Below are positions 1,835 to 40,732 of a stretch of DNA of 40,732 nucleotides, piece after piece (positions within the stretch are counted from its first letter, which is position 1; every line of letters begins with the position of its first letter). Made by a program: the position numbers and the translations under genes. The stretch covers positions 1-40,732 of IMG/VR virus record IMGVR_UViG_3300042866_000633; one strand, given 5' to 3'. The DNA comes from a virus. Below the pieces are notes generated by a model. The model did no database searches, was not told where the DNA came from, and saw only the letters and a list, made by a program, of their open reading frames with translations.

Positions 1835-3472
1835 ATGAACAAAATCGAAGATATGTGCCACCGGTACAACACCCTCAAGGGCTCCCGGGGCAACTGGGAG
1901 ACCCACTGGGAGGAGATCGCGGAGCGTGTGCTCCCCCGGCAGCGCGGTTTTGTGGGCCAGCGCAGCGATGGTGAGAAGAAGTCCGAGAAGATTTTTGATT
2001 CCCGGCCACAGATCGCCCTGGATCGCTTTGCCGCAGTCATGGACTCCATGCTCACGCCGCGCCAGTCGAAGTGGCACAACTTGCGCACGACTGACGAGTC
2101 CCTGAACCGTCAGTTCGCGGTGCAGGACTGGTTCTATCAGGTCAACAACATCCTGCACCAGATGCGCAACTCGCCGAAGGCCAACTTCGCCGGGCAGAAT
2201 TACGAACGGTGGATCTCGATGGGTGCTTTCGGCACGGGTTCCCTGTTCATCGACTTCGCGGCCGGCGTGGGCCTGCGGTATCGGTGCATCAACCTGCGGG
2301 ACACCTTCTTTTTGGAGAACCATCAGGGCATCATTGACTCCGTGTACCGGTGCTTCAAGCACACGGCGCGGCAGGCGGCGCAGCGGTGGGGTGAGCAGAA
2401 CCTGCCCGAGAAGGTGCGCAAGGCGCTGGAGAACCCCAGCCGCCAGAACGAGCAGTTCGAATTTTTGCATGTCGTGGCACCCCGCACCGACTACGACTCG
2501 GGCCGCGCAGACGCCCGGGGCAAGCCGTGGGCGTCCTATTACCTGTCGGTGGCCGAGAAGATGCTCCTCGCACCCGAGGGTGGGTTCACCAGCTTCCCGT
2601 ACAGCATCGCCCGCTATGTCACGGCACCCGAGGAGGTCTACGGACGCTCGCCTGCGATGACGGCGCTTGCCGACATCAAGATGCTCAACGAGATGTCCAA
2701 GACCGACATCCGCGCCGTCCACAAACTCGTGGACCCACCGATCCTGCTGCACGATGACGGCATCCTGGGCGGCGGGGCCACCACGATTCGCATGCAGCCT
2801 GGTGGCCTGAATCCCGGTGGCGTGAACCGCAACGGTCAGCAGATGATCCAGCCGTTCACCACGGGTGCCCGGGTGGACATCAACGAGCAGAAGATGGAGC
2901 AGCGGCGCATCGCCATCGACGATGCGTTCCTCGTGACCCTGTTCCAGATCCTCGTGGACACGCCGCGCATGACCGCCACCGAGGCGCTGATCCGGGCACA
3001 GGAGAAAGGGATGCTCTTGACCCCGACGATGGGGCGTCAGCAGTCCGAGGCGCTCGGGCCGCAGATCGAGCGCGAACTCGACCTCCTGATGTTCCACCGC
3101 ATCCTGCCGCCGATGCCGCGTGAACTGGTGGAGGCCGGGGGCGACTACGAGATCGTCTACGACTCCCCGATGTCCCGCATGGCTCGGGCCGAGGAACTCG
3201 TGGGTGTGCAGCGCACCATGGAACTGCTGGCCCCGTTTGCCCAGATCGACCCGAGCGTGCTCGATGTGTTTGACCGGGACGCACTGGCCCGCTTGACGGC
3301 CGAGGTGTCCGGGGTGCCGACTCCCGTGCTTCGCAGTCAGGAGCAGGTTGACGCGATCCGGGCGCAACGGGCACAGCAGGAGCAGGAGGCCATGGCCATT
3401 CAGGCCGCACAGCCCATCGCTGGTGCCATGAAGGACGCGGCGCAAGCGAACCAGTTGCTGATGGGCGCATGA
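1835..3472 (+). CDS. Portal / head-to-tail connector protein, 545 aa
   Basis: Matches the head-tail connector family of T7-like and BPP-1-like podophages in length and character: an early MNKIEDMCHRYNTLKGSRGN segment, a central LTPRQSKWHNLR, and a Gln-rich C-terminal helix ending QANQLLMGA. It would form the dodecameric ring at the capsid vertex through which DNA is packaged and ejected. A GTG nine bases upstream is in frame, but AAGGTG lies at proper distance before ATG 1835, which I therefore take as the start. Its last bases overlap the next start (ATGA), so expression is coupled to the Bbp19-like gene. Confidence 0.93.
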   Translation: MNKIEDMCHRYNTLKGSRGNWETHWEEIAERVLPRQRGFVGQRSDGEKKSEKIFDSRPQIALDRFAAVMDSMLTPRQSKWHNLRTTDESLNRQFAVQDWFYQVNNILHQMRNSPKANFAGQNYERWISMGAFGTGSLFIDFAAGVGLRYRCINLRDTFFLENHQGIIDSVYRCFKHTARQAAQRWGEQNLPEKVRKALENPSRQNEQFEFLHVVAPRTDYDSGRADARGKPWASYYLSVAEKMLLAPEGGFTSFPYSIARYVTAPEEVYGRSPAMTALADIKMLNEMSKTDIRAVHKLVDPPILLHDDGILGGGATTIRMQPGGLNPGGVNRNGQQMIQPFTTGARVDINEQKMEQRRIAIDDAFLVTLFQILVDTPRMTATEALIRAQEKGMLLTPTMGRQQSEALGPQIERELDLLMFHRILPPMPRELVEAGGDYEIVYDSPMSRMARAEELVGVQRTMELLAPFAQIDPSVLDVFDRDALARLTAEVSGVPTPVLRSQEQVDAIRAQRAQQEQEAMAIQAAQPIAGAMKDAAQANQLLMGA

Positions 3473-3720
3473 ACCTCAACCCCCTGACGCTCATTCGTGG
3501 CCGAGCCTACCGGGCCACGTTCAACAATCCACAGGGTCGCAAGGTGCTGGCCGACCTGAGGCGCTTCTGCAGGGCATCCGTGCCCACGGCAGATGTGAAC
3601 AATGTCCAGACCACTTACCTCCTCGAAGGCAGGCGCGAAGTGTGGTGCCGCATCCAGGCCCACCTGAACCTGACCGACGAGGATGTAATCAACTTGATCG
3701 AGGATTCCCCAAATGAGTAA
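3469..3720 (+). CDS. Bbp19-like small virion-module protein, 83 aa
   Basis: Overlaps the portal stop by four bases. The pattern VLADLRRFCRA ... LEGRREVWCRIQAHLNLTDE is characteristic of the Bbp19 family found directly after the portal in BPP-1-like phages. Family members are small helical proteins; their precise role is not established. The next gene starts inside its last codons (3713), so portal, this gene and scaffold form a coupled unit. Confidence 0.8.
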   Translation: MNLNPLTLIRGRAYRATFNNPQGRKVLADLRRFCRASVPTADVNNVQTTYLLEGRREVWCRIQAHLNLTDEDVINLIEDSPNE

Positions 3721-4570
3721 TGCTGCTGCCGCCCTGCTGGGCGATAACGGTGGCGCTGGAGCCGGTGCCCCCGGTGCCGGTGCTGCGCCTACTGGTGTCG
3801 CACCCACGGCACAACCGAGCCCAGGCTCAGTCTGGACCGCTGCGTTCGACGAGGACACGAACGCGTACGTGAGCAACAAGGGGTGGAAGGAACCCCAGGA
3901 CCTCCTGATGTCCTACCGCAATCTGGAGAAGTTTGCCGGTGGCGCCAAGAACCTGCTCGAACTGCCGCCCGAGGACGCCAGTCCCGAGGCGCTGGATGCC
4001 TTCTACACCAAACTCGGCCGGCCGGCGAGCCCAGACGAGTACGGCATTCGCCCGCCCGAGGGTGCTGACCCTGAACTGACGAACTGGTTCAAGGGGACCG
4101 CGCACAAACTGGGTCTGAGCGCCAAACAGGCGCAGCAACTCTACAGCGAGTGGAACGGCATGTCTGGTTCGCTGCAGGAGAAACTCCAGACGCAGCAGGC
4201 GCAGGAGTCCGAGAAGGCCATCGGGTCGCTCAAGCAGGAGTGGGGTCAGGCGTTTGACACGAACATCGGCGCGGGCCGTCGGGCCGTCGCAGCACTAGGT
4301 CTGGACGCTGGGAAACTCGCGGCCTACGAAGAGAAACTCGGGACATCCGAGATGCTCAAGCTCTTTGCGACCCTCGGGTCCAAGATGGGCGAGGACACTT
4401 TCGCCGGGGAGCGTGGTGAAGGTGGGTTTGGTACCACGCCAGCCCAGGCCAAAGCCCAGATCGCCGATTTGAAGCTGGACAAGTCGTTCATGGACAAGTA
4501 CCTCTCGGGAGACCGAGACGCCGTGGGCAAGATGTCCCGACTCATGGAGGCCGCGTATGCAGGCGGATGA
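3713..4570 (+). CDS. Capsid assembly / scaffolding protein, 285 aa
   Basis: A Gly/Ala/Pro-rich flexible N-terminus (residues ~10-40) is followed by an acidic, helical body with long charged stretches (LQTQQAQESEKAIGSLKQEW) and a C-terminal helical tail with KMSRLMEAAYAGG. The position between portal and major capsid gene and the composition are those of a podophage scaffold that guides procapsid assembly and then leaves. A GAGG lies about nine bases before the ATG. No protease signature is visible. The stop overlaps the start of the next gene by 14 bases. Confidence 0.82.
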   Translation: MSNAAAALLGDNGGAGAGAPGAGAAPTGVAPTAQPSPGSVWTAAFDEDTNAYVSNKGWKEPQDLLMSYRNLEKFAGGAKNLLELPPEDASPEALDAFYTKLGRPASPDEYGIRPPEGADPELTNWFKGTAHKLGLSAKQAQQLYSEWNGMSGSLQEKLQTQQAQESEKAIGSLKQEWGQAFDTNIGAGRRAVAALGLDAGKLAAYEEKLGTSEMLKLFATLGSKMGEDTFAGERGEGGFGTTPAQAKAQIADLKLDKSFMDKYLSGDRDAVGKMSRLMEAAYAGG

Positions 4571-18840: not shown

Positions 18841-20256
18841 TTAAATCCCGCGTGTCAAGCGGTATTGCTTCACGGCATTTCGCAGCCCCGCCTGAGTCTG
18901 TGCCTTCTCGTCCAGCGCCATCGCTTGCGCCTGATCCAGCGTGTCCAGCACCATGATCCTGTGGCAGATCACAGGAGCCCCCTGACCCTGACGCCGGATG
19001 CGTGCGTTCATCTGATCGTACAGGTCCAGGCTCCAGTTGAGTCCGTACCAGACGATGATGTGCCCGCACTTCTGCAGACCGTCGATCCCGTGGCCCATGC
19101 TCGCCGGGTGGCCGATCATCAGGGCGCAGTCCCCCGAGGCCCACCGGGCCATGGCGTTGGTGAGCGCAGCCTCTGACTTGCACTCGGTCAGGTTCACGGG
19201 ACGAAGGTGCTTGAACTTCTCCATGATCCTCTCGGCGTCACTCCGGTAAGCGTAGGCGCACAGTACCTGCTGGCCCTGTGCCTCGTCGATGATCTCCTCC
19301 AGCGCCTCCAGCTTGAGGTCGTGGATCGGCTCCCACAGAGGCATCCCGGCCACGGGGTACATGGCGCCATTGGAGAACTGGAGGCACTTGTTGGTCAAGG
19401 ACGCCTGGTTGAACATCTCGACCTCTTTGCCGCTGTCAAGCTGGATGAACAACTCCTTCTCCATCCGGTTGTACAGGGTGCGCAGGGCCTCGGGTAACTC
19501 GATGCTCACATCGTTGACCATCATGTCGGGGAGCGGGTTGTAGTCGGCTGCAGACATCTCCAGCGTGATGTCCCCGATCAACTGCTTGATCTCGTTCTCA
19601 GCCCCCTCGTAGGGCACCTCGCGGTGTGGACCCTCCTTGCGATAGAACCGCTGCCGGAACGCCGTCTTGCTGGTCCCCAGGCGCAAACCCTTGTCCACCA
19701 CGAGGTACTGCCCGTGCAGATCCTTGTACCCGTTGGAGGCCGGGGTGCCAGTGAGTCCCGTGGTCCACTTGAAGTGGGGCAGGATCTTCTTGGTGGCCTT
19801 GACTCGCTGGGTGTTCGAGTTCTTGCACTTTGATATTTCGTCCCACACGAGCCCGTCGAACGGTGGGTCGCGGTGCTTGGAGATGAAGTAGGTGGCCAGC
19901 GTCTCCGCGAGCCACCCGAGGTTCTCGTAGTTCACCAAGTAGATATTCGCCGGCCGCAGGAGAGCCCGGGTCCGCTGGTCCTTGGTGCCCGTGAGCAGCG
20001 AGAACGTCAGGTGCTTGGTGTGCTGCCACTTGAGGGCCTCCTGACGCCACACCAGTCGAATCACGCGGATGGGGGCCACGATGACCACGCCTCGCAGGAA
20101 CCCGCAGGACAACAGGTGCGCGATGCTGGTGAGCGTGATAGCGGTCTTCCCCAAGCCCATGTCGAGCCAGAGCATCGTGGCTGGGTGGGTGCACTGGAAG
20201 TTGACCGCGCTCTGCTGGTAAGGGAACAGTTGCGCGGGGGTCAGCACGGTCGGCAC
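18841..20256 (-). CDS. SNF2-type superfamily 2 helicase, 471 aa
   Basis: ATP-dependent DNA translocase/helicase. Motif I MGLGKT at residues 33-38; motif II WDEIS near 137; motif III LTGTP near 167; motif V region GHGIDG and motif VI QMNARIRRQGQ near 414 with the arginine finger. The order and the early LFPYQQSAVNF Q-motif mark the SNF2-like helicases common in phage replication modules, often with VRR-NUC and DUF2800/DUF2815 genes as here. GTG start; a second GTG three codons in has a better spaced GGAG and could be the true one. Overlaps the methyltransferase stop. Confidence 0.92.
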   Translation of the reverse strand: MPTVLTPAQLFPYQQSAVNFQCTHPATMLWLDMGLGKTAITLTSIAHLLSCGFLRGVVIVAPIRVIRLVWRQEALKWQHTKHLTFSLLTGTKDQRTRALLRPANIYLVNYENLGWLAETLATYFISKHRDPPFDGLVWDEISKCKNSNTQRVKATKKILPHFKWTTGLTGTPASNGYKDLHGQYLVVDKGLRLGTSKTAFRQRFYRKEGPHREVPYEGAENEIKQLIGDITLEMSAADYNPLPDMMVNDVSIELPEALRTLYNRMEKELFIQLDSGKEVEMFNQASLTNKCLQFSNGAMYPVAGMPLWEPIHDLKLEALEEIIDEAQGQQVLCAYAYRSDAERIMEKFKHLRPVNLTECKSEAALTNAMARWASGDCALMIGHPASMGHGIDGLQKCGHIIVWYGLNWSLDLYDQMNARIRRQGQGAPVICHRIMVLDTLDQAQAMALDEKAQTQAGLRNAVKQYRLTRGI

Positions 20257-21317
20257 TCCATGTAGGCGCGGATCACTTGCTCCGCGACTTGCGGGACGAT
20301 GGCGTTACCGTAGGCGCGCAGTCGTCCCACTCGGTTGGATACCCCATGAGCCAGCGGGAATGTGCCGGGTTCAACTGGCCTCCACTTCCCGTCGCGGCAT
20401 GGGAGCCAGTCGCATCGGGACCAGTGATTGCTGCCACGTTCGGTAATTGTTTCTGACCCGAGTCTTTGCGTTCCGTGCTTGCCATCCAGTGATCGAGTGC
20501 CATCGGCGTAGGCCAATTCGACAACCACACCGTCCTCCCGAGCAGCGAGTTCAACTCCACGTTGTCGCACTGGCTCCCGTCCTTCCAGTCTCTTGTTGTT
20601 GTTGTTGGCCAGCCAACTAGGTTCGCCTCGTCCCTCAGTTTGTAGCGACCCGCTGTTCCATTGCGAATCTCCATGACCCCACCCTCCCCGTCCGATGCGC
20701 TGGTCGTTCGCCAGCCAATCAGGTGCGCCACTGACTCCACACACATCTGCTTCCCGCTCGCCAGTCGCCGGTCTGCCATCTCCGGTGTGCTGTATCGCCA
20801 CTTCTCGTCCGATGCGCTGGTCGTCGGCCACGAACCAGAGTCTTTGCCTGATGTGCGGAGCCCCGACGCCCGCAGCAGGGACACCGACTGCCCCGAAGGC
20901 GTAACCTTCACCTTCCAAGTCATCTTGAACAAGGTCGAGCCAGCCGTGGTTAATCGCTGCATCAACCTGTTCACCAAAGATGACTGGAGGTCGTTGGCTC
21001 CGTACAAGATGGAACCAATGCGGCCATAGGTGCCGCTCGTCAGCAGTCCCTGCTCCTTGGCCTGCGACGCTGAAAGGCTGGCAGGGGCAACTGCCGGTCC
21101 ACACGGGTCTGTCGTCAGACCACCCGGCGAGCCTGAGAGCCAGGCTCCAGCCACCGATGCCGGCGAAGAAGTGGCATTGGGTGTACCCAACCAAGTCGGA
21201 AGGTCGGACATCTGAGATTGATCGTTCATCTACTTCTCCGGGTGCAATGTGCCCTGCGGCAATTAGGTTACGCAACCACTGTGCCGCATACTTATCGATC
21301 TCGTTGTAGTAGTTCAT
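20241..21317 (-). CDS. C5-cytosine DNA methyltransferase, 358 aa
   Basis: Transfers a methyl group from S-adenosylmethionine to carbon 5 of cytosine. Motif I FAGIGG at 51-56; motif [11 protein letters not shown] with catalytic C79; motif VI-like FGEQV near 115; motif VIII-like [10 protein letters not shown]; motif [14 protein letters not shown] at the end. The region between VIII and X (target recognition) contains repeated [16 protein letters not shown] segments. No restriction endonuclease is nearby, so protection of phage DNA is the likely role. A second 318-codon frame on the same strand overlaps almost all of it. Coupled to the VRR-NUC gene by ATGA. Confidence 0.92.
20273..21229 (-). CDS. 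Overprinted WPTP-repeat protein inside the methyltransferase gene, 318 aa
   Basis: Same strand, different frame from the methyltransferase. The ATG has CGGAG six to seven bases upstream, a proper ribosome site. The product has a Ser/Gly-rich start, [40 protein letters not shown], four WPTT/RTTSASD-type repeats and a C-terminal [12 protein letters not shown] ... SSRKSRSK. From memory, proteins of just this architecture are annotated in very many phages and prophages. Function unknown. It could in principle be a database-propagated shadow of the methyltransferase, so I keep confidence moderate. The stop lies 32 bases before the methyltransferase stop. Confidence 0.5.
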
Positions 21318-21604
21318 CGCAGCGCCATGAAGTCAATAGTCGTGCGCCCGTTCTCCACCGAGTCCACGACAAACACCGCGACTCCCTGGACCCGCAGGCG
21401 CTCGTGTTCACGGTCCTGTGCCGGTGTGACCTTGACACCCTCACGCTTGAACTCGATGAAGAAGACCACACCCTTGGGCGTGATGAGCAGGCGATCAGGC
21501 ACTGCGGCCCTTTCCGGCGAAGTGAACTTGTAGACCAGAAACCCATTGGACTTTGCATAGTCGCAGACACTGCGCTCAATCTGTTTCTCAAGAAGGTTTG
21601 CCAT
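21314..21604 (-). CDS. VRR-NUC domain nuclease, 96 aa
   Basis: Minimal stand-alone VRR-NUC (PD-(D/E)XK superfamily). Visible are PERAAVPDRLLITP with the catalytic D, FFIEFKREG supplying E and K, and QDREHERLRVQGVAVFVV with the Q and following helix. Family members cut branched or single-strand DNA ends and in phages lie near SNF2 helicases, as here. GGAG seven bases before ATG. Overlaps the neighbours on both sides. Confidence 0.92.
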   Translation of the reverse strand: MANLLEKQIERSVCDYAKSNGFLVYKFTSPERAAVPDRLLITPKGVVFFIEFKREGVKVTPAQDREHERLRVQGVAVFVVDSVENGRTTIDFMALR

Positions 21605-24509: not shown

Positions 24510-25811
24510 TTACGAGAGCCACGAGGGCAGAGACTCTGCCACCGGGGCTTGGGGGACCGCTGCGAACAGCGGCGAGGCATCCAGCACCACGGCAGGCCGG
24601 GAGTCGGATTCGGGGACCACGGTGAGCTTCCCAGCCACCTTGGACACGTACTCGGTGTCCAGCGTCTTGAGTTGACGCTCGGACAACTGCTTCACGATCT
24701 TCTCGCCGGCCTTGGTCGCCTCCCACTTGAGTTTCTCGACCTTGGCCACCGTGACGAGTTTGGTCTCGTAGACCGCCGACTTGGGGATGCCCATCTTGAT
24801 CAACTTGTCGGCCATCTCGTCCTCAGGCAGCGCCCAGGACCGCGAGCCACGACCATGCACCACCTTGAGCCCGGGGATCGCTTGACCGGCCTTCAGGCGG
24901 CGCAGGGCCTCCTCCTCGACCGACTCGATCATCTGACGCACCAGAGGCGCAGCGAGCATGATCTGGCTGATCTTCTCGGGGGTCATGGTGTTGGGGTCGA
25001 GGTCGGCAGCTTGCTGCGACAACTCGCTGACCGGGTTGACCGGCTGGTTCAAAACAGGGAAAGACATTCCCATCTCCTTTACCAAGTCGCCGGCCCGTTG
25101 CGAGCACGACTTGTGTTTACAGTATTTGCAATGACTCCCGGACACCAGGGGTGCGTCGGGTTGATCGGTGGCTGCAGCGCCCGCGACGAATTTGCCAATC
25201 TTGCCCATGAGTTCGGGGATTGTCAAGTCGTGCGAGGTGATGACGGGCAGGCCCTTCAAGGCCATCTTGGGCTGGATGATCGTGGTCTTGATCGTCTGGA
25301 ACCCGTAGTCCCCGTTGATCGGCAACTTGAGTTTCGCCAGTGCCCCGAGTGCATACAGTTCGAGTTGCGGGTTGTCCTTGGCCGTGACCTCGTTCATCCC
25401 GTCCTTGTAGTCGATGACCTCGAACGCATCAGGGGTCGTGATCTGGACATCGGCCGTGCCACTCATGTCGTCGCGCCCGAGGAAGTGCGCCGGTTGGACC
25501 TTGGACTCCGCAACCACCTGACCCATGAACCCGGCCCGCTGGCGCACGTAAGTCAAAGCCTGTGCCACCCGATCAGCCCGGGCTCGGTCAACCACAAACT
25601 CACCCTCGTGGTCCTTGAGTTTGATGCCGATCATCTTCAAGGGATCACCGTTGCCCTTGATGCAGTGCTCCAGCAGCGTGTGGCTGTGGGTGCCGTCAAT
25701 GGCACCCGGGCCACTCGGAGGCTCGGGGTACTTCGCCTCCTCGCGCACAGACCCCGGGCACGCGAGCCAGCGGTATGCGCTGCTCGGGCTCAGTTTGGAG
25801 TGGGTGGTCAT
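24510..25811 (-). CDS. DUF2800 RecB/Cas4-like PD-(D/E)XK nuclease, 433 aa
   Basis: Begins MTTHSKLSPSSAYRWLACPG, the DUF2800 hallmark with the first cluster Cys (C18); a second group CKYCKHKSC lies near 228-236, consistent with a Fe-S cluster as in Cas4/AddB. Nuclease core: SGTADVQIT (Asp) and EVIDYKDG (E-x-x-D-Y-K). C-terminal ~200 residues are helical and ligase-like repeats are not evident. Probably an exonuclease for recombination-dependent replication together with the DUF2815 SSB. Overlaps the upstream gene by four bases. Confidence 0.9.
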   Translation of the reverse strand: MTTHSKLSPSSAYRWLACPGSVREEAKYPEPPSGPGAIDGTHSHTLLEHCIKGNGDPLKMIGIKLKDHEGEFVVDRARADRVAQALTYVRQRAGFMGQVVAESKVQPAHFLGRDDMSGTADVQITTPDAFEVIDYKDGMNEVTAKDNPQLELYALGALAKLKLPINGDYGFQTIKTTIIQPKMALKGLPVITSHDLTIPELMGKIGKFVAGAAATDQPDAPLVSGSHCKYCKHKSCSQRAGDLVKEMGMSFPVLNQPVNPVSELSQQAADLDPNTMTPEKISQIMLAAPLVRQMIESVEEEALRRLKAGQAIPGLKVVHGRGSRSWALPEDEMADKLIKMGIPKSAVYETKLVTVAKVEKLKWEATKAGEKIVKQLSERQLKTLDTEYVSKVAGKLTVVPESDSRPAVVLDASPLFAAVPQAPVAESLPSWLS

Positions 25812-27027: not shown

Positions 27028-27051
27028 ATGACTAACGGGATGATTCTATGA
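27028..27051 (+). CDS. Leader peptide candidate MTNGMIL coupled to primase
   Basis: AGGAG six bases before ATG 27028; the seven-codon frame ends TGA at 27049-27051, overlapping the primase ATG at 27048. The primase itself has no good ribosome site, so re-initiation from this leader is likely. A longer in-frame version from GTG 26965 (28 residues, GGAG seven bases upstream) is also possible. Confidence 0.4.
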   Translation: MTNGMIL

Positions 27052-29558
27052 CACCAACACCAGTCGCGCAACACCCATCGTCCGTTGAGACCTACATCCG
27101 CCACGGGTGGTCCCTCGTACCCATCCCCCCTGGCACCAAAGGCCCAGCGCACAAGGGGTGGAACCTGAAACAGAGCGCCCTGACGCTGGAGCAGACCTTG
27201 CCCCCGGGGTACGGCATCGGCCTGGCGCACGCCTACTCGGGCACCATGGCGCTGGACATTGACAATTGGGACCGCGCCGCGTTCGAGTTGATGATGCGCG
27301 GCATCGACCTGCATGCCCTGTACGCTGCCCCCGATGCCGTCATCATCGACTCAGGGCGGGCGGGTCATGGGAAGCTGTTGTACGCGATGCCGTTCGGGCT
27401 GGCCCTGCCATCCAAGCGGGTCATCATCGACGCCACCACGATCTACGAACTGCGCTGCGCCACAGGCAACGGAGTCACGGTGCAGGACATCCTCCCACCC
27501 ACTATCCACCCCGACACCAAGCAGCCGTACCGCTGGGCTGGCAGTGGTCACTGGTCCCGTTTGCCCACGATTCCACAGGCCCTGCTGGACCTCTGGCAGT
27601 CCCTGCTGGCCGGCGAGTCCCGCTCACCCCAGACTGCGGTGCAGGAGGGCTCGGAGAAGGTCGATTGGGCCGAGATCGTCTCGGCTCTTGGTGCGGTCTC
27701 CTCGGACTGCTCACGCGAGGACTGGATCACTATCGGCATGGCCTGTCAGTGCGCTGGCGTCTTGAGTGCACAGCCAGACAGAGCGTTCGAGGTGTGGGAC
27801 ACATGGAGCAAGGGGTCAACCACCAAGTACCCGGGGCCTCGGGACATGGCAACCCAATGGAACTCGTTTCGCGCCGACAAGGGCAACCGGGTGACGCTGG
27901 GCTCGCTGTTCAAACTGGCCCACGATGCAGGGTGGTCCAAGCCCCTGCCCGACGCGTCGACCTTCTTCTCCCCGCTCACCGAGATCAAGCACCCCGAGCA
28001 GGTCATCACCGACATCCGCATCCCGCCACCCGATCTGGACTTCGACCTCGTGCCGCCTGTGCTGCGCACCCGGGCGCTTGAGATCAGCGAGCACATCGGC
28101 TGTGACCCGCTGGTGCCCCTGATGGCTGGCATGGCTGCGGTGTGTGGTGCAGTGGACGCTCGCACCAGGCTGGAGTTGATGCCCGGGTTCAAGGTGCCTC
28201 CGGTGCTGTGGATATGCTCCATCGGTGAGCCCGGGGACAAGAAGACTCCAGGGTCCAAACCGATGTTCGAGATCCTGACCCAACTCGAACGGGAAGACGC
28301 CCCTCGTTTCGCAAAGGCGGCTGTGGACTTCGAGGTCAACGAGGCTCGGTATGTCGTGGCCAAGAAGCACCTGATCGACAGTGCCACGGCCCCCGAGGCG
28401 CTCTTGACCAACAGCCCTTTGCCCACCCTGCCACCGAACCCGGCAAAGCCCGTGCCGCTCAAGATCACGGTGCAGGACATCTCCTCGCAGAAACTCGTGC
28501 GCCACGCGGCCGACAGGCCCCGGGGCTTGCTGTGCGCCTTGGACGAGATGGCCTCGTGGGTCGAGAAGGTCTGCGACCCTCGAAGCGGGGATGACCGCAG
28601 TGCCTGGACCGTAGCCTATGAGTCTGGCAGGTACGAGATGGACAGGGTGGGCACGGGCACCACGCTGGCCGACAACTATGCGGTGGCGTTTTTTGGGAAC
28701 CTGCAGCCTCGGGTGCTGCGCGAGAACTTCAAGGCCCTCTCGAAGGATGGACTGGTGCAGCGGTTCATCCCGGTCAACATCAGGGCCGACATGAGGAAGC
28801 TGGGCAACCCGGTGCCCTCCTACATGACCAACTCGGCAGAGTACGACCAGGCCATCCGGGTGTGCTTCGGCCTGCCTCCCATGACCTACAGGCTCACGGG
28901 TCCGGCCTACGACACCTATCGTGCGTTCCAAAGGTGGTACGAACGGGCGATGACTGACGAGCGCATACTAAAGGGCTCGGAGACCGTGCAGACGGCCATG
29001 GGCAAGATGGAGGGCCTCGTGGGTCGCATCGCACTCGTGTGGCACTGCATCGAGGCTCCGTACTCCATTGAAGTCTCTGAGCCCCTGATGGTCAGAGCCA
29101 TTGAGTTCGTGCGCCGGTTCGTGATCCCAAGCCTGCGGTACACGTTCGATGGGGACTACGGCGGTGCCGTGGGGCTGGAGAAGTGGTGCTCGGAGTATGT
29201 GCTGCAGTATGCCGATCAGGACCAGTTCACCCTAGGGACACTGAAGCGCAGCGCCAGGCGCCAGATCGAGGGCATGTCGAGCATTACGGCGCAGCAGCAG
29301 CTGCTCATCGCCATGGCCCCGCTGGAGGACGCGAAGTGGGTGGCTCGCATGGACGATGGGTCGCAGGAGTTCCGGGGCATGGCGACATGGGCCATCAACC
29401 CGGGCCTGAAGGAGTGGTTCAGAGACTATCGGGATCAGGTGACGGCAGCGAAGCAGCGGCGCCGGGACGATCTGCACCAGGGGCCAAAGACAGAGCGGAC
29501 CCGGGTGCCGGGGTACACGGGGCCTCGGGAGCCTGCTCTTGAAAAGAGGGTGGCGTGA
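27048..29558 (+). CDS. PrimPol primase fused to DUF3987 helicase-like domain, 836 aa
   Basis: Residues ~10-185: archaeo-eukaryotic primase (PrimPol) domain with the MALDIDN metal motif near 68-74 and SGRAGHGKLLY near 102. Residues ~204-295: PriCT-2-like domain (DWAEIVSALGAV ... TLGSLFKLAHDAGW). Residues ~350-780: DUF3987, with Walker A-like GEPGDKKTP near 392 and Walker B-like CALDEM near 496. Would prime and perhaps unwind DNA at forks. First gene of a two-gene rightward unit; its stop overlaps the methyltransferase start. Confidence 0.9.
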   Translation: MTPTPVAQHPSSVETYIRHGWSLVPIPPGTKGPAHKGWNLKQSALTLEQTLPPGYGIGLAHAYSGTMALDIDNWDRAAFELMMRGIDLHALYAAPDAVIIDSGRAGHGKLLYAMPFGLALPSKRVIIDATTIYELRCATGNGVTVQDILPPTIHPDTKQPYRWAGSGHWSRLPTIPQALLDLWQSLLAGESRSPQTAVQEGSEKVDWAEIVSALGAVSSDCSREDWITIGMACQCAGVLSAQPDRAFEVWDTWSKGSTTKYPGPRDMATQWNSFRADKGNRVTLGSLFKLAHDAGWSKPLPDASTFFSPLTEIKHPEQVITDIRIPPPDLDFDLVPPVLRTRALEISEHIGCDPLVPLMAGMAAVCGAVDARTRLELMPGFKVPPVLWICSIGEPGDKKTPGSKPMFEILTQLEREDAPRFAKAAVDFEVNEARYVVAKKHLIDSATAPEALLTNSPLPTLPPNPAKPVPLKITVQDISSQKLVRHAADRPRGLLCALDEMASWVEKVCDPRSGDDRSAWTVAYESGRYEMDRVGTGTTLADNYAVAFFGNLQPRVLRENFKALSKDGLVQRFIPVNIRADMRKLGNPVPSYMTNSAEYDQAIRVCFGLPPMTYRLTGPAYDTYRAFQRWYERAMTDERILKGSETVQTAMGKMEGLVGRIALVWHCIEAPYSIEVSEPLMVRAIEFVRRFVIPSLRYTFDGDYGGAVGLEKWCSEYVLQYADQDQFTLGTLKRSARRQIEGMSSITAQQQLLIAMAPLEDAKWVARMDDGSQEFRGMATWAINPGLKEWFRDYRDQVTAAKQRRRDDLHQGPKTERTRVPGYTGPREPALEKRVA

Positions 29559-30671: not shown

Positions 30672-31022
30672 CTATACGGACGACGAGAGCCAGGCCGGGA
30701 TATCGGGAGCGGGGGATTCTGGGGCCTGTGGGGCGTTTTCCTGGCTCGCGGCACCAGTACCCTTAGCCGGCCGGCCGCGTGGCCGCTTGGCTTGATCTGG
30801 TGCAGATGCGCGGGCTTCGCTCAATAGTTCGCCCTGGAGCATCGGGTAAGCCCTGCCGATACGCTGCAGAATGGCGAATAGGCGCAGTGTTGCAGAATCG
30901 GGGTTTCGGGTCCCGTTCTCCCACTTCTTCAGCGTATGGACCGGGACACCTAGGTAGTGCGCCATGGCCAGTTCGGACAAACCTAGGTCAGCTTGCCATT
31001 GTTTCATTTCGAAGGGAGTCAT
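30672..31022 (-). CDS. HTH DNA-binding protein with C-terminal AT-hook, 116 aa
   Basis: Residues 1-65 form an XRE/HigA-like helix-turn-helix: MKQWQADLGLSELAMAHYLG, VPVHTLKKWENGTRNPDSAT. After a helical stretch comes KRPRGRPAKG, a canonical AT-hook core (RGRP), then an Ala/Pro-rich tail ending IPAWLSSSV. I start at the ATG preceded by GGAG and nine bases; the longer frame to 31148 would overlap the upstream gene. Last gene of a leftward group of small genes; likely a transcription regulator, target unknown. Confidence 0.82.
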   Translation of the reverse strand: MTPFEMKQWQADLGLSELAMAHYLGVPVHTLKKWENGTRNPDSATLRLFAILQRIGRAYPMLQGELLSEARASAPDQAKRPRGRPAKGTGAASQENAPQAPESPAPDIPAWLSSSV

Positions 31023-31043
31023 GTTTCGATTCTCCAAAAGGTT

Positions 31044-31065
31044 ACCCGGGCGCATAGGCCCGGGT
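31044..31065 (-). promoter_or_regulatory. Strong hairpin in the leader of the HTH gene
   Basis: Perfect 8-bp stem ACCCGGGC/GCCCGGGT with a six-base loop between two leftward genes, followed on the minus strand by AACCTTTTGGAG, where GGAG is the HTH gene's ribosome site. Could attenuate transcription or protect the downstream message; too few T residues for a strong terminator. Confidence 0.6.
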
Positions 31066-31093
31066 TTGTGGTTTAGGGGTGACTGGTGCCGGG

Positions 31094-31309
31094 TTAGTTG
31101 GGTTTCGCGGTATCCTGGATCCGCTGAAGCTTGTCGAAAATAGCGCATGCATCGGACATTTTCAGAGCATCGGATGCAAGGGTACCGATGGTGCGCATGT
31201 CGTCAACGCGGGCCCGTAGTCGATCAGCCACTAGGCGCAAATGTGGGGATTCACAGCCCTCGCATGTACGCAGGATCTCGTTATCCGTCATTGTGTGGTG
31301 GAGAAACAT
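31094..31309 (-). CDS. Hypothetical protein, 71 aa
   Basis: MFLHHTMTDNEILRTCEGCE, then a helical part with VADRLRARVDDMRTIGTLAS. The inner ATG (seventh codon) could be the true start; neither has a clear ribosome site. Two cysteines in CEGC could hold metal but no second pair is present. Lies three bases after the upstream stop. Confidence 0.6.
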   Translation of the reverse strand: MFLHHTMTDNEILRTCEGCESPHLRLVADRLRARVDDMRTIGTLASDALKMSDACAIFDKLQRIQDTAKPN

Positions 31310-32994: not shown

Positions 32995-33232
32995 GGTTAG
33001 CCTTTCGATTGGGTTACGGGTTGCTGACCCTTGATTACATGCATACACTGTGCCAATTCTACAAGTTATTGATTCCATTGGGTTTTAATATTGGGTCAGA
33101 TTGGCAGTGTAAAGAAAAGCCGAACACTGTCACCCATGGCCATAAATGACGACACAATGGGTTTCACTGGTGGTACGGTTGTCGGGATTATTGACAATGG
33201 GATTCTCGGGGTCCAGTGGTCCAGTGGGTTCG

Positions 33233-33405
33233 CTGTGACAATGTGACATGTTGCACTGCGGCATGTGACAAAGTGACCTTAAAACGACATGACCACTCGT
33301 AGGTTTTTTTAAAAAAGGAGTCTAGATCATGTTTCCCGTGTAGCGATTCTGTCGCTTGTTGCAGTGCAGCATGTCACCAGTGTCACCCGTGTCACATTGT
33401 CACAG
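33233..33405. repeat. Large dyad of TGTGACA iterons around an AT tract
   Basis: Left arm: TGTGACA at 33234, 33242 and 33264, AGTGACC at 33272. Right arm: TGTCACC at 33372 and 33381, TGTCACA at 33390 and 33398. Another TGTCACC lies outside at 33128. The outer 16 bp (33233-33248 / 33390-33405) are perfectly inverted, and TGTTGCACTGC (33249-33259) mirrors GCAGTGCAGCA (33361-33371) with one mismatch. Confidence 0.9.
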
Positions 33406-33434
33406 TACCCAGCGGGTCAGGGCTCAATGGGTAA

Positions 33435-33491
33435 ACCTGAGCCCGATGGGTCAACCTGAGCCCGATGGGTCAACCTGAGCCCGATGGGTCA
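33435..33491. repeat. Three tandem 19-bp repeats
   Basis: ACCTGAGCCCGATGGGTCA repeats perfectly at 33435, 33454 and 33473. GGGCTCA, the complement of its TGAGCCC core, flanks the array on both sides (33421 region and 33494 region), so each end can also form a hairpin. Confidence 0.95.
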
Positions 33492-33502: not shown

Positions 33503-33566
33503 ATCCGGTAGTGAGCGCTCACTGCGCCAGAGGAGCTGGGATCCGGTAGTGAGCGCTCACTGCGCC
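33503..33566. repeat. 26-bp direct repeat carrying a 14-bp palindrome, two copies
   Basis: 33503-33528 and 33541-33566 are identical. Each contains the perfect palindrome AGTGAGCGCTCACT (33510-33523 and 33548-33561), with centres 38 bp apart. Looks like paired operator sites. Confidence 0.93.
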
Positions 33567-33643
33567 TGGGGGGTGGGGGCCCCCAGCGGCTGGCGGCGCG
33601 GTGACGAGGGTGGTCACCCGAGCACCCCGAGAACCCTCACATC

Positions 33644-33679
33644 TAAAAACCCATTGGCACTATTTTAAAAACCCATTGG
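33644..33679. repeat. Two 14-bp direct repeats spaced 22 bp
   Basis: TAAAAACCCATTGG at 33644-33657 and 33666-33679: about two helical turns apart, on the same DNA face, just upstream of the candidate rightward promoter. Confidence 0.85.
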
Positions 33680-33702
33680 AATCTGAGAAACCGCGATACA
33701 CT
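33676..33702 (+). promoter_or_regulatory. Weak candidate promoter before the tRNA-like locus and terminase genes
   Basis: TTGGAA (33676-33681), 15-base spacer, TACACT (33697-33702). The spacer is short, so this is tentative; it is the best sigma70-like pair in the 160 bases before the terminase gene. Confidence 0.3.
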
Positions 33703-33725
33703 ACTCCTCTGGCTTGGTGAAATCG

Positions 33726-33814
33726 GAGAAGTGCAGTCACACGGCTTAGACTGCGGCGCTGATAGCGTTCGGCCCTGAGAGGGGCACGGGTTCGACTCCC
33801 GGCACGACTCGCCA
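33726..33814 (+). ncRNA. tRNA-like RNA with long variable arm (possible unusual or decayed tRNA)
   Basis: Features in order: 5' GAGAAGTG (33726-33733) partly complementary to CACGACTC (33803-33810; six of eight pairs, two central mismatches). D-arm-like stem GCAGTC/GACTGC around a loop ACACGGCTTA with the GG dinucleotide. Possible anticodon loop CTGATAG (33759-33765). Short extra hairpin CCCT-GAG-AGGG (33773-33783), as in Ser/Leu/Sec tRNAs. T-arm CGGG-TTCGACT-CCCG (33787-33801). Then G and encoded CCA (33811-33814). The T-arm and CCA are convincing; the anticodon stem is poor. A canonical tRNA cannot be drawn. Confidence 0.4.
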
Positions 33815-33844: not shown

Positions 33845-34390
33845 ATGACCCAGGCAAGCCCCCAGCCCCAACTCGAAGACCAGACGCTTCCTGACTGGCT
33901 GGCCGCGCCTCTGCCCTACTACCACCCTGCCGTTCTCGTGCTGCGAAAGCAGGCAATGCTGGCGCAGAAGCAGATGGACCACATCACCTTCGAGTCGCTG
34001 TTCGATGAGTTTCTCGACAAGGTGCGGGAGAACAGCCTCGGGGTGACTCAGTTGTTTGAGAACGATCCGAGATCCCCGAACCTCAAGCGGTTCATCGCAT
34101 GGGTCATGCGCGACGAGAACCGCAAGGCGCAGTACTACGAGGCGCAAGCCATCGGTGCCGAGGTCATGTTCATCGAGCAGTCCGCCATCGTTGACGCCAA
34201 GGACAGCATGGAGGATGTCAACCGGTCCACATTGAGAGCCAATGATCGCAAGTGGAAGATGGGTGTGATGAATCGCAAACGCTTTGGTGATGTGAGGCAG
34301 ATTGACCAGAACGTCACCATCGACCTCTCAGGGGCCATGCAGCAGGCGCAGGAGAGGCTGGATCGGGCGAGGACCATCGATGCCGCCTAA
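33845..34390 (+). CDS. Terminase small subunit, 181 aa
   Basis: Directly upstream of and overlapping the large subunit. N-terminal Pro/Gln-rich stretch, then helices: FESLFDEFLDKVRENSLGVT, FIAWVMRDENRKAQYYEAQA, DRKWKMGVMNRKRFGDVRQI. The last pattern is common in terminase small subunits and related DNA-binding packaging proteins of Proteobacteria phages. It would recognise the packaging site. No Shine-Dalgarno is visible before the ATG. An upstream -10-like GATACC would give a very short or absent leader. Confidence 0.85.
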   Translation: MTQASPQPQLEDQTLPDWLAAPLPYYHPAVLVLRKQAMLAQKQMDHITFESLFDEFLDKVRENSLGVTQLFENDPRSPNLKRFIAWVMRDENRKAQYYEAQAIGAEVMFIEQSAIVDAKDSMEDVNRSTLRANDRKWKMGVMNRKRFGDVRQIDQNVTIDLSGAMQQAQERLDRARTIDAA

Positions 34391-39425: not shown

Positions 39426-40732
39426 ATGCCAACTACCAACGGAAACAGAAAAATCCTTGACCTGCCGCGGTGGGAATTTTGCACTCCCGTACCTACATCA
39501 ACTGCCGCCGGAACGTTTATCGCATCTTCGCGCCACTACCGGCAGCAGCAGCTGTATGTCGCAAGCGCAACGCTGCATTACCTGTACTCGCCGCTTGAAA
39601 ATGGTGTGGTGCAAATCCCCTCTGGTGCGCTCGCTGGCACTTTTGCCGCCGGAGCATGTGGAGTGGCAACCGCTATCGGCCCCTCGGGCACTGCGACGGC
39701 AGGCACGACCTCGACGATCACGACGAACTTGACGCTGGCCCGTGACCTGCGCGGATACAGCATCCACATCACCGGCGGCCCGAACGCTGGCGCGACACTG
39801 GCGATCTCGTCGAACACGGTCGGCACGAACTCGGTCATTACCGTCCCGGTACAGGCGTCGGCGTTCACGGCCTCGACCACCTATCGGCTGATCACCCCGA
39901 GGTGGTACGTCCTCAATGCCATCACGGCGGCGGGCACCACGACTGCGGCGGTGTTCCGCTTCTACGATTTCGCCTTGAACACCTGGACATCGGCCGAGAC
40001 CGGCGCGACGGACGGTATTGCTCCGGCGGCAGTGATCGGCACGGACTCCAAACTCATTGCCACGCCATCCTGGGTCGGCTCTGATTACAAGGCATTTGCC
40101 ACCGGCACGGCCACGGCTGGTGGAGCATCGACGCTGACCAACAGCGCCAAGACCTGGGCGACGAACCAGTGGGCGAACTCGCAAATTCGCATTGTGTCGG
40201 GCACGGGCGCAGGCCAGATCCGCACCATTGCGTCGAACACCGGCACCGTGGTGACGACCTCGGCGGCGTGGACGACCGCTCCCGATGCCACCTCGGTGTA
40301 CAGCATTGAGGGCAACGACGACTTCCTCTACTACCTCGGCAGTGCCGCTGTCACGCTGTTTCGCTACAGCATCTCGGCTGGCACATGGACAACCTTGTCC
40401 CCGACCGCCGCCCGTGCCGCCGCCCCCGGCGTTGGAATGTCTGCGCACTGGGTTCATGAGGCGACGGACGCCGCGTGGACGAACGAGTCGGACATCCGCA
40501 ACGGGCGGTTCATCTACAGCTTTCGGGGAACCGCTGGTGCCGTGCTCGACCGCTACGACATCGCGCTCAATACGTGGGCCAGCGCACTCACCTACGCACC
40601 GTCAACAGAGGTTTTCGGCGCGGGAAGCAAATACGTCTACCGCAAAGACTGGATCTACTCGCAGAAGGATGCCACCGGCAGGTGGTTCCGGTACAACGTG
40701 GTGACCAATGAGCAGGATGGCTGGTCAACCAT
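39426..40732 (+). CDS. Tail adhesin-like protein, N-terminal part (480 aa in total, ends at 263)
   Basis: ATG one base after the previous stop; open to the window edge and completed at 1-263. The protein starts MPTTNGNRKILDLPRWEFCT. It carries repeated beta strands of two types: about five FxYDxxLNTWxS/FRYSISAGTWTT motifs resembling kelch/galactose-oxidase blades (RFYDFALNTWTS, FRYSISAGTWTT, DRYDIALNTWAS), and GTATAGGASTLTNSAKTWAT-type segments. A beta-propeller or blade-like adhesin is likely. No catalytic site recognised. Position in the virion block supports host contact. Confidence 0.82.
   Translation, partial: MPTTNGNRKILDLPRWEFCTPVPTSTAAGTFIASSRHYRQQQLYVASATLHYLYSPLENGVVQIPSGALAGTFAAGACGVATAIGPSGTATAGTTSTITTNLTLARDLRGYSIHITGGPNAGATLAISSNTVGTNSVITVPVQASAFTASTTYRLITPRWYVLNAITAAGTTTAAVFRFYDFALNTWTSAETGATDGIAPAAVIGTDSKLIATPSWVGSDYKAFATGTATAGGASTLTNSAKTWATNQWANSQIRIVSGTGAGQIRTIASNTGTVVTTSAAWTTAPDATSVYSIEGNDDFLYYLGSAAVTLFRYSISAGTWTTLSPTAARAAAPGVGMSAHWVHEATDAAWTNESDIRNGRFIYSFRGTAGAVLDRYDIALNTWASALTYAPSTEVFGAGSKYVYRKDWIYSQKDATGRWFRYNVVTNEQDGWST
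40606..40732. repeat. Terminal direct repeat, copy 2 (circular assembly overlap)
   Basis: Identical to bases 1-127. It should be counted only once; the unique circle is 40,605 bp. Confidence 0.9.

Follow-up and report, generated by a model that had tools for sequence, protein, structure and literature searches.

Opposed TGTGACA iterons as the probable replication origin of a phage encoding a PrimPol-PriCT2-DUF3987 protein

What is the role of a dense array of short repeats that face each other across an A/T run in a phage genome? To our knowledge, the origins of most metagenomic phages are unmapped, and the array at 33121-33405 of the DNA analysed here (the window, 40,732 nucleotides) had been read in a preliminary description as either a replication origin or a cooperative operator, with the PrimPol unit as the one obvious initiator in the genome. 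The present analysis supports that reading, and the comparative evidence favours an origin over an operator. The two ends of the record share a 128-bp direct repeat (1-128 and 40605-40732), which marks the assembly (40,604 bp) as circular or terminally redundant.

Anatomy of the array

The array lies in a gene-free region, as had been described: no open reading frame of at least 60 amino acids overlaps 33121-33405, and neither Rfam nor ARAGORN called anything in the array region. It holds eight sites of the TGTGAC/GTGACA type; 5000 local dinucleotide shuffles gave 1.22 on average and 6 at most. In 60 whole-genome shuffles the densest 285-bp window had at most 5 such sites, and the rest of the real genome has at most 2 per window outside the array. 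The elements of the region are listed below; L003 and L004 are near-identical phages.

33128..33134, minus strand: outlying TGTCACC, in the right-hand orientation though left of the A/T run
33233..33248 (plus) and 33390..33405 (minus): arms of the outer inverted repeat, 16 bp, perfect
33234..33240, plus strand: iteron TGTGACA, outermost of the left set; also kept in L004
33242..33248, plus strand: iteron TGTGACA, left set, at 8-bp spacing from the preceding copy; also kept in L004
33264..33270, plus strand: iteron TGTGACA, inner copy of the left set; also kept in L003 and L004
33272..33278, plus strand: degenerate iteron AGTGACC, left of the A/T run; AATGACC in L004
33304..33316, no strand: A/T run TTTTTTTAAAAAA within the spacer between the iteron sets; TTTTTAAAAAGTCGTA here in relatives
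33342..33356, no strand: small dyad AGCGA-TTCTG-TCGCT
33372..33378, minus strand: iteron TGTCACC, inner copy of the right set; also kept in L003 and L004
33381..33387, minus strand: iteron TGTCACC, right set; altered in L003 and L004
33390..33396, minus strand: iteron TGTCACA, right set
33398..33404, minus strand: iteron TGTCACA, outermost of the right set
33422..33491, plus strand: secondary 19-bp tandem repeats GGGTCAACCTGAGCCCGAT; they differ between close relatives

The preliminary description had counted nine iterons, a number that is reached if the degenerate AGTGACC at 33272 and the outlying TGTCACC at 33128 are both included. Its opposed orientations on the two sides of the A/T run hold for the main sets; the outlier is the wrong way round and probably lies outside the origin core. 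The outer 16-bp inverted repeat is perfect as claimed, whereas an inner perfect 11-bp repeat is absent, the longest perfect pairs besides sub-matches of the 16-bp arms being 8 bp. In addition, an imperfect 28-nt inverted pair (33243-33270 and 33350-33377) is 82% complementary. The spacer between the sets (33278-33371) has 57% A+T, against about 40% for the genome, and the A/T run at 33304-33316 is a candidate melting site. A change of skew at the array, proposed earlier as a check, is not clearly seen: cumulative GC skew has its maximum at 33613 and TA skew an extremum at 33401, two weak signals that gene direction confounds, and there is no classical GC-skew minimum.

Several other features lie near the array. 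A tRNA-like stretch at 33700-33811 (GGTTCGACTCCCGG...CGCCA, with cloverleaf-like arms) is found only in this phage and in L002; it is absent from L003 and L004, was called by neither ARAGORN nor Rfam, and is possibly a tRNA remnant or an attachment-site-like insert. The perfect palindrome AGTGAGCGCTCACT occurs twice (33510-33523 and 33548-33561) within a 38-bp direct repeat, one copy being kept in L003 and L004, and resembles an operator or a site connected with the terminase. Motifs of the TAAAAACCCATTGG/CCATTGGGTTTTAA type are placed around the noncoding region (33071-33086, 33644-33657 and 33666-33679), and this word forms dense iteron arrays in the relatives L010, L015, L048, L049 and L060.

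Conservation in relatives and spread of the word

Between this phage and the near-identical L003 and L004, the array is the best-conserved noncoding stretch, and the adjacent repeats are variable. L004 is identical at 159 of the 171 positions of 33234-33404; its array core aligns and the upstream stretch with the outlying TGTCACC does not. Since L004 has an altered AGTGACC at 33272, and both phages an altered TGTCACC at 33381, these two sites look dispensable, the latter probably so.

Among 80 PrimPol relatives compared, in which the noncoding core was located with a nucleotide profile, 54 loci offered enough sequence, and 49 of these have a homologous core downstream of PrimPol, at 1.8-5.3 kb. 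Its consensus reads GTGACAA ... TTTTTAAAAAGT ... CTCGCCTGCGCGAAGG ... TGTCACA, where the GC-rich TCGC/GCGA element CTCGCCTGCGCGAAGG may be the equivalent of the 33342-33356 dyad. In 64 aligned cores the left GTGAC site is kept in 60 and both sites in 39. The present phage matches this profile weakly (E 3-10) and belongs to a minority with a diverged core and multiplied TGTGACA. As to iteron conservation, which had been suggested as a check, the core pair of sites persists and the number of iterons varies between relatives.

Beside the core, many relatives bear other repeat words (CCCANTGGG/TGACCCA, ACCCANTGGGT, GCTAACA and ACCCGAT), and the repeats at 33422-33491 are akin to the ACCCANTGGGTCA iterons that predominate at this place in other relatives. 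Such different words at the same place indicate that the secondary repeats turn over. In the isolate relative Phage DSL-LC05 (L284), GTGGGTCA/CCACTGGG repeats lie upstream of terS at about 3350-3950, and no TGTGACA cluster was found within the 7.6 kb read, a case of iteron-word turnover in which the locus itself is not lost. A nucleotide search with 1.7 kb around the array gave no match among phage records; against plasmids, its sole match was 77 bp within the terminase region.

Searches beyond the relatives used the exact 15-mer TGTGACAATGTGACA, which is present in 75 IMG/VR contigs, most of the array contigs being fragments. At least five sites within 400 bp were seen in 51 of these 75, whereas the reversed 15-mer, a control that keeps the composition and repeat structure of the original, occurred in 30 contigs with clusters of that word in only 2 (Fisher p 4e-9). 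Aligned sites give the consensus TGTGACAA with a dominant 8-bp tandem spacing, a picture biased by the fixed hexamer and the selecting 15-mer. The loci fall into two main groups, A comprising the relatives of this phage, which are related so that their counts are not independent events, and B comprising phages with a VapE-like helicase. The opposed orientation around an A/T run was considered as a universal rule and rejected; it is a strong tendency (20 of 28 loci in groups A and B, 26 of 44 overall), with clear exceptions in several reversed loci. We found no published match to a TGTGACA-type origin or iteron word in the open-licence literature, a result that does not make the word undescribed.

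Primase-helicase genes and the candidate initiator

The array keeps company with primase-helicase genes. DUF3987 or VapE was found in 28 of 49 array records and in 5 of 30 controls (p 4e-4), where the control records were fewer and unmatched and four of the five control matches were weak and fragmentary. The 21 array records with neither protein include many fragments and five with related proteins. Wherever the relative position was tested the array lies 3' of the gene (27 of 27: 13 of 13 VapE loci and 14 of 14 DUF3987 loci), and at VapE loci it is within about 45 bp of the gene in 10 of 13. Related proteins also adjoin arrays, namely a PrimPol-DUF927 protein in L152, PrimPol in L155 (array 50 bp downstream), BT4734_N-DUF3987 proteins in L127 and L147, a BT4734_N-PriCT2 protein in L115, and D5/DUF5906 proteins in L111 and L128. 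A profile comparison detected no sequence similarity between the VapE and DUF3987 proteins; a common reader of the array is therefore not established for the two.

The genes of this phage that bear on the question are the following.

18841..20256, minus strand: SNF2-like helicase, common to VapE phages with the same array
21314..21604, minus strand: VRR-NUC nuclease, common to VapE phages (weak Pfam match, below cut-off)
24510..25811, minus strand: DUF2800/PD-(D/E)XK nuclease, common to some VapE phages
27048..29558, plus strand: PrimPol (PF09250)-PriCT_2 (PF08707)-DUF3987 (PF13148) protein (Pfam, over cut-off)
33845..34390, plus strand: terminase small subunit, first gene downstream of the array

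The SNF2-like and VRR-NUC proteins are the main ones common to this phage and the VapE phages. In a local search, SNF2 was present at 13 of 14 VapE loci and VRR-NUC at 12 of 14, and both were found at none of 30 control loci; the DUF2800 protein, shared with some group B phages, was likewise absent from the control loci. Over all array records, SNF2 was found in 20 of 49, and it was over cut-off in 2 of 30 controls. SNF2 as a universal partner was rejected, as the long DUF3987 or D5 array records L116, L127 and L128 have no SNF2 match.

Some loci have an organisation of their own. In L115 (213-7720) two similar BT4734_N-PriCT2 primase genes flank the array, the replication protein having apparently been duplicated. 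A mirrored double-iteron pattern also occurs in the genome contigs L158-L165 and L167, mostly from Bacteroidales/Prevotella, where several arrays have what look like ordinary chromosomal genes on either side, and no primase-helicase was recognised near them; these could be a chromosomal repeat family or relics. In L166, the mirrored pattern adjoins a BT4734_N-VapE-like gene.

The candidate initiator of this phage is the 27048-29558 protein, a primase and helicase with a predicted C-terminal winged helix, whose gene is 3.57 kb from the array and not adjacent to it. No solved relative was found by sequence search. In its AlphaFold model (mean pLDDT 75.5), residues 333-700 match MCM AAA+ helicases at Z about 17, with about 270 residues superposed to an rmsd of 3.6-3.9, suggesting a predicted MCM-like AAA+ fold for the DUF3987 domain. 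Residues ~708-783 of the model have a winged-helix-like order of elements, and some MCM chains align up to residue 786; folded alone, this C-terminal domain gave a poor model (pLDDT 44) that was not used. Among the phage proteins scanned with Pfam and PHROGs, which covered part of the open reading frames, none was recognised as a RepA_N or Rep-type initiator. For the VapE proteins of group B, the closest solved structure is 7pds, 'Similar to D. nodosus vapE'.

The closest parallel is with the phage-inducible islands. In every PICI origin an AT-rich region is bracketed by two sets of iterons, directly 3' of pri-rep, and the pri-rep-ori function of EcCICFT073 was tested experimentally (PMC6092414). 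In the EcCICFT073 sequence, a D5-type primase-helicase gene is directly followed by TGTCTACC tandems, then an AT-rich core and then GGTAGACA copies in inverted orientation. The present array shares with PICI and SaPI elements (SaPIbov1, SaPI5, EcCICFT073) the opposed sets of short iterons, repeated in tandem every 8-9 bp on both sides of an AT-rich core, the location downstream of a phage-type primase-helicase gene and, by its model, a candidate AAA+ initiator helicase encoded in the element; the VapE proteins found next to this array in other phages likewise have the VapE-type 7pds as their nearest solved structure. In contrast to the PICI satellites, this phage encodes small and large terminase subunits; its iteron word is TGTGACA rather than the TGTCTACC of EcCICFT073, its helicase is DUF3987 rather than D5 or VapE, and its array is about 3.6 kb downstream and not immediately 3', an adjacency that 10 of 13 VapE phages do have.

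Similar arrangements are known elsewhere. In SCCmec, the C-terminal domain of Cch2 binds AAGTG iterons 3' of the helicase gene, priming start sites of CCPol-MP map to the same repeat region, and the origins of SaPIs are found close downstream of rep (PMC7581432). The short iterons 3' of a helicase gene are alike; however, three direct iterons of another word are reported in SCCmec, and primase and helicase are separate proteins. The NrS-1 PrimPol and pRN1 ORF904 also combine PrimPol, a helix bundle (PriCT) and a helicase in one protein, although with superfamily III or predicted D5_N helicase domains; these primases recognise GTG in the template (PMC8718748), and in the NrS-1 genome the 8-nt site occurs just twice, with no iteron array (PMC7102993). 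The same domain plan with a C-terminal winged helix characterizes the PrimPol-PV1 supergroup, with DUF3987, DUF927 or VirE/VapE helicases. Kazlauskas et al. (2018) predicted DUF3987 and VirE (PF05272) to be helicases and the C-terminal winged helix to recognise the origin; theirs is a protein analysis, and no cognate origin word was found in the passages considered (PMC5862659). Finally, iteron origins of plasmids and of PLE (RepA_N) have initiator-bound repeats beside an A-rich tract (PMC7145576), much as proposed here, and differ in their RepA_N or Rep-type initiator, a kind not recognised among the scanned proteins of this phage.

Origin, operator or packaging site

We conclude that 33230-33405 is probably the replication origin, with the phage's own PrimPol-PriCT2-DUF3987 protein as its likely initiator. 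This reading rests on the array statistics, the conserved core, its fixed position, the association with primase-helicases and the PICI-like organisation. An origin is favoured because, in unrelated phages, this array goes with AEP primase-helicase genes and was on their 3' side in all 27 cases tested, and because it combines the anatomy of the tested EcCICFT073 origin with the best-conserved noncoding block among close relatives.

The shuffle statistics, the reversed-word control, the conserved core and the fixed genomic position contradict a chance or low-complexity repeat without function, for which the variation of repeat number and word among relatives would speak. It is improbable that the array is a cooperative operator or regulatory hub for a phage repressor or activator such as the HTH protein at 30672-31148: such a protein is present, and short tandem and inverted sites separating genes that point left and right would suit it, but no regulator gene is adjacent, no regulator family emerged as common to the array loci, and the arrays of VapE phages come just after the vapE stop codon. 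A packaging start (pac or cosB-like), where the iterons would be binding sites of the terminase small subunit, whose gene lies about 440 bp downstream, would account for terS and terL directly following the array in this phage and its group A relatives, and for arrays in or near terminase genes in L083, L087, L104 and L135. We consider it unlikely, as it leaves the primase-helicase association unexplained, the terminase families differ between groups while the word is constant, and in VapE phages the array sits right against the VapE gene, is followed by VRR-NUC and SNF2 genes and has no terminase seen beside it.

The array could also be an origin element read by another shared replication protein, such as the SNF2-like helicase, VRR-NUC or an unrecognised small protein. 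The sharing of SNF2 and VRR-NUC between this phage and the VapE phages speaks for such a reader, which is nevertheless rather unlikely given the long array records that have DUF3987 or D5 and no SNF2 match, and the 13 kb between the SNF2 gene and the array in this phage.

For an origin served by the primase-helicase, we infer a putative course of binding, melting and priming, and a putative iteron-reading domain. The predicted C-terminal winged helix, the PriCT2/AEP part or both would bind the iterons; two MCM-like AAA+ rings would assemble, one per iteron set, and then melt the A/T-rich spacer. The AEP domain might lay the first primers, as TGTGACA contains GTG, the template word of the pRN1 and NrS-1 AEP primases, and divergent forks would depart from the origin. 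Given the orientation found in this phage, the strand that carries TGTGACA would serve as template for the leading strand of each departing fork, as would fit a primase that reads GTG, although across loci this orientation is no more than a strong tendency.

A wider and tentative idea, which we regard as possible though doubtful, is that phage replicons of one broad class have TGTGACA as their common recognition word; their sole common protein part would be an AEP/PrimPol-type primase, the helicases (VapE, DUF3987, DUF927, D5/DUF5906) having been swapped. If so, the reader of TGTGACA would be the primase half (PriCT/AEP, through GTG), for which the word would be a template-specific site of priming, and two leading strands would diverge from the mirrored arrays. 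The array connects the DUF3987 and VapE primase-helicases, a large class that is uncharacterised, with a concrete probable origin word and its architecture, provides a simple sequence handle for locating origins, and raises the question of why one word recurs with helicases lacking detectable similarity.
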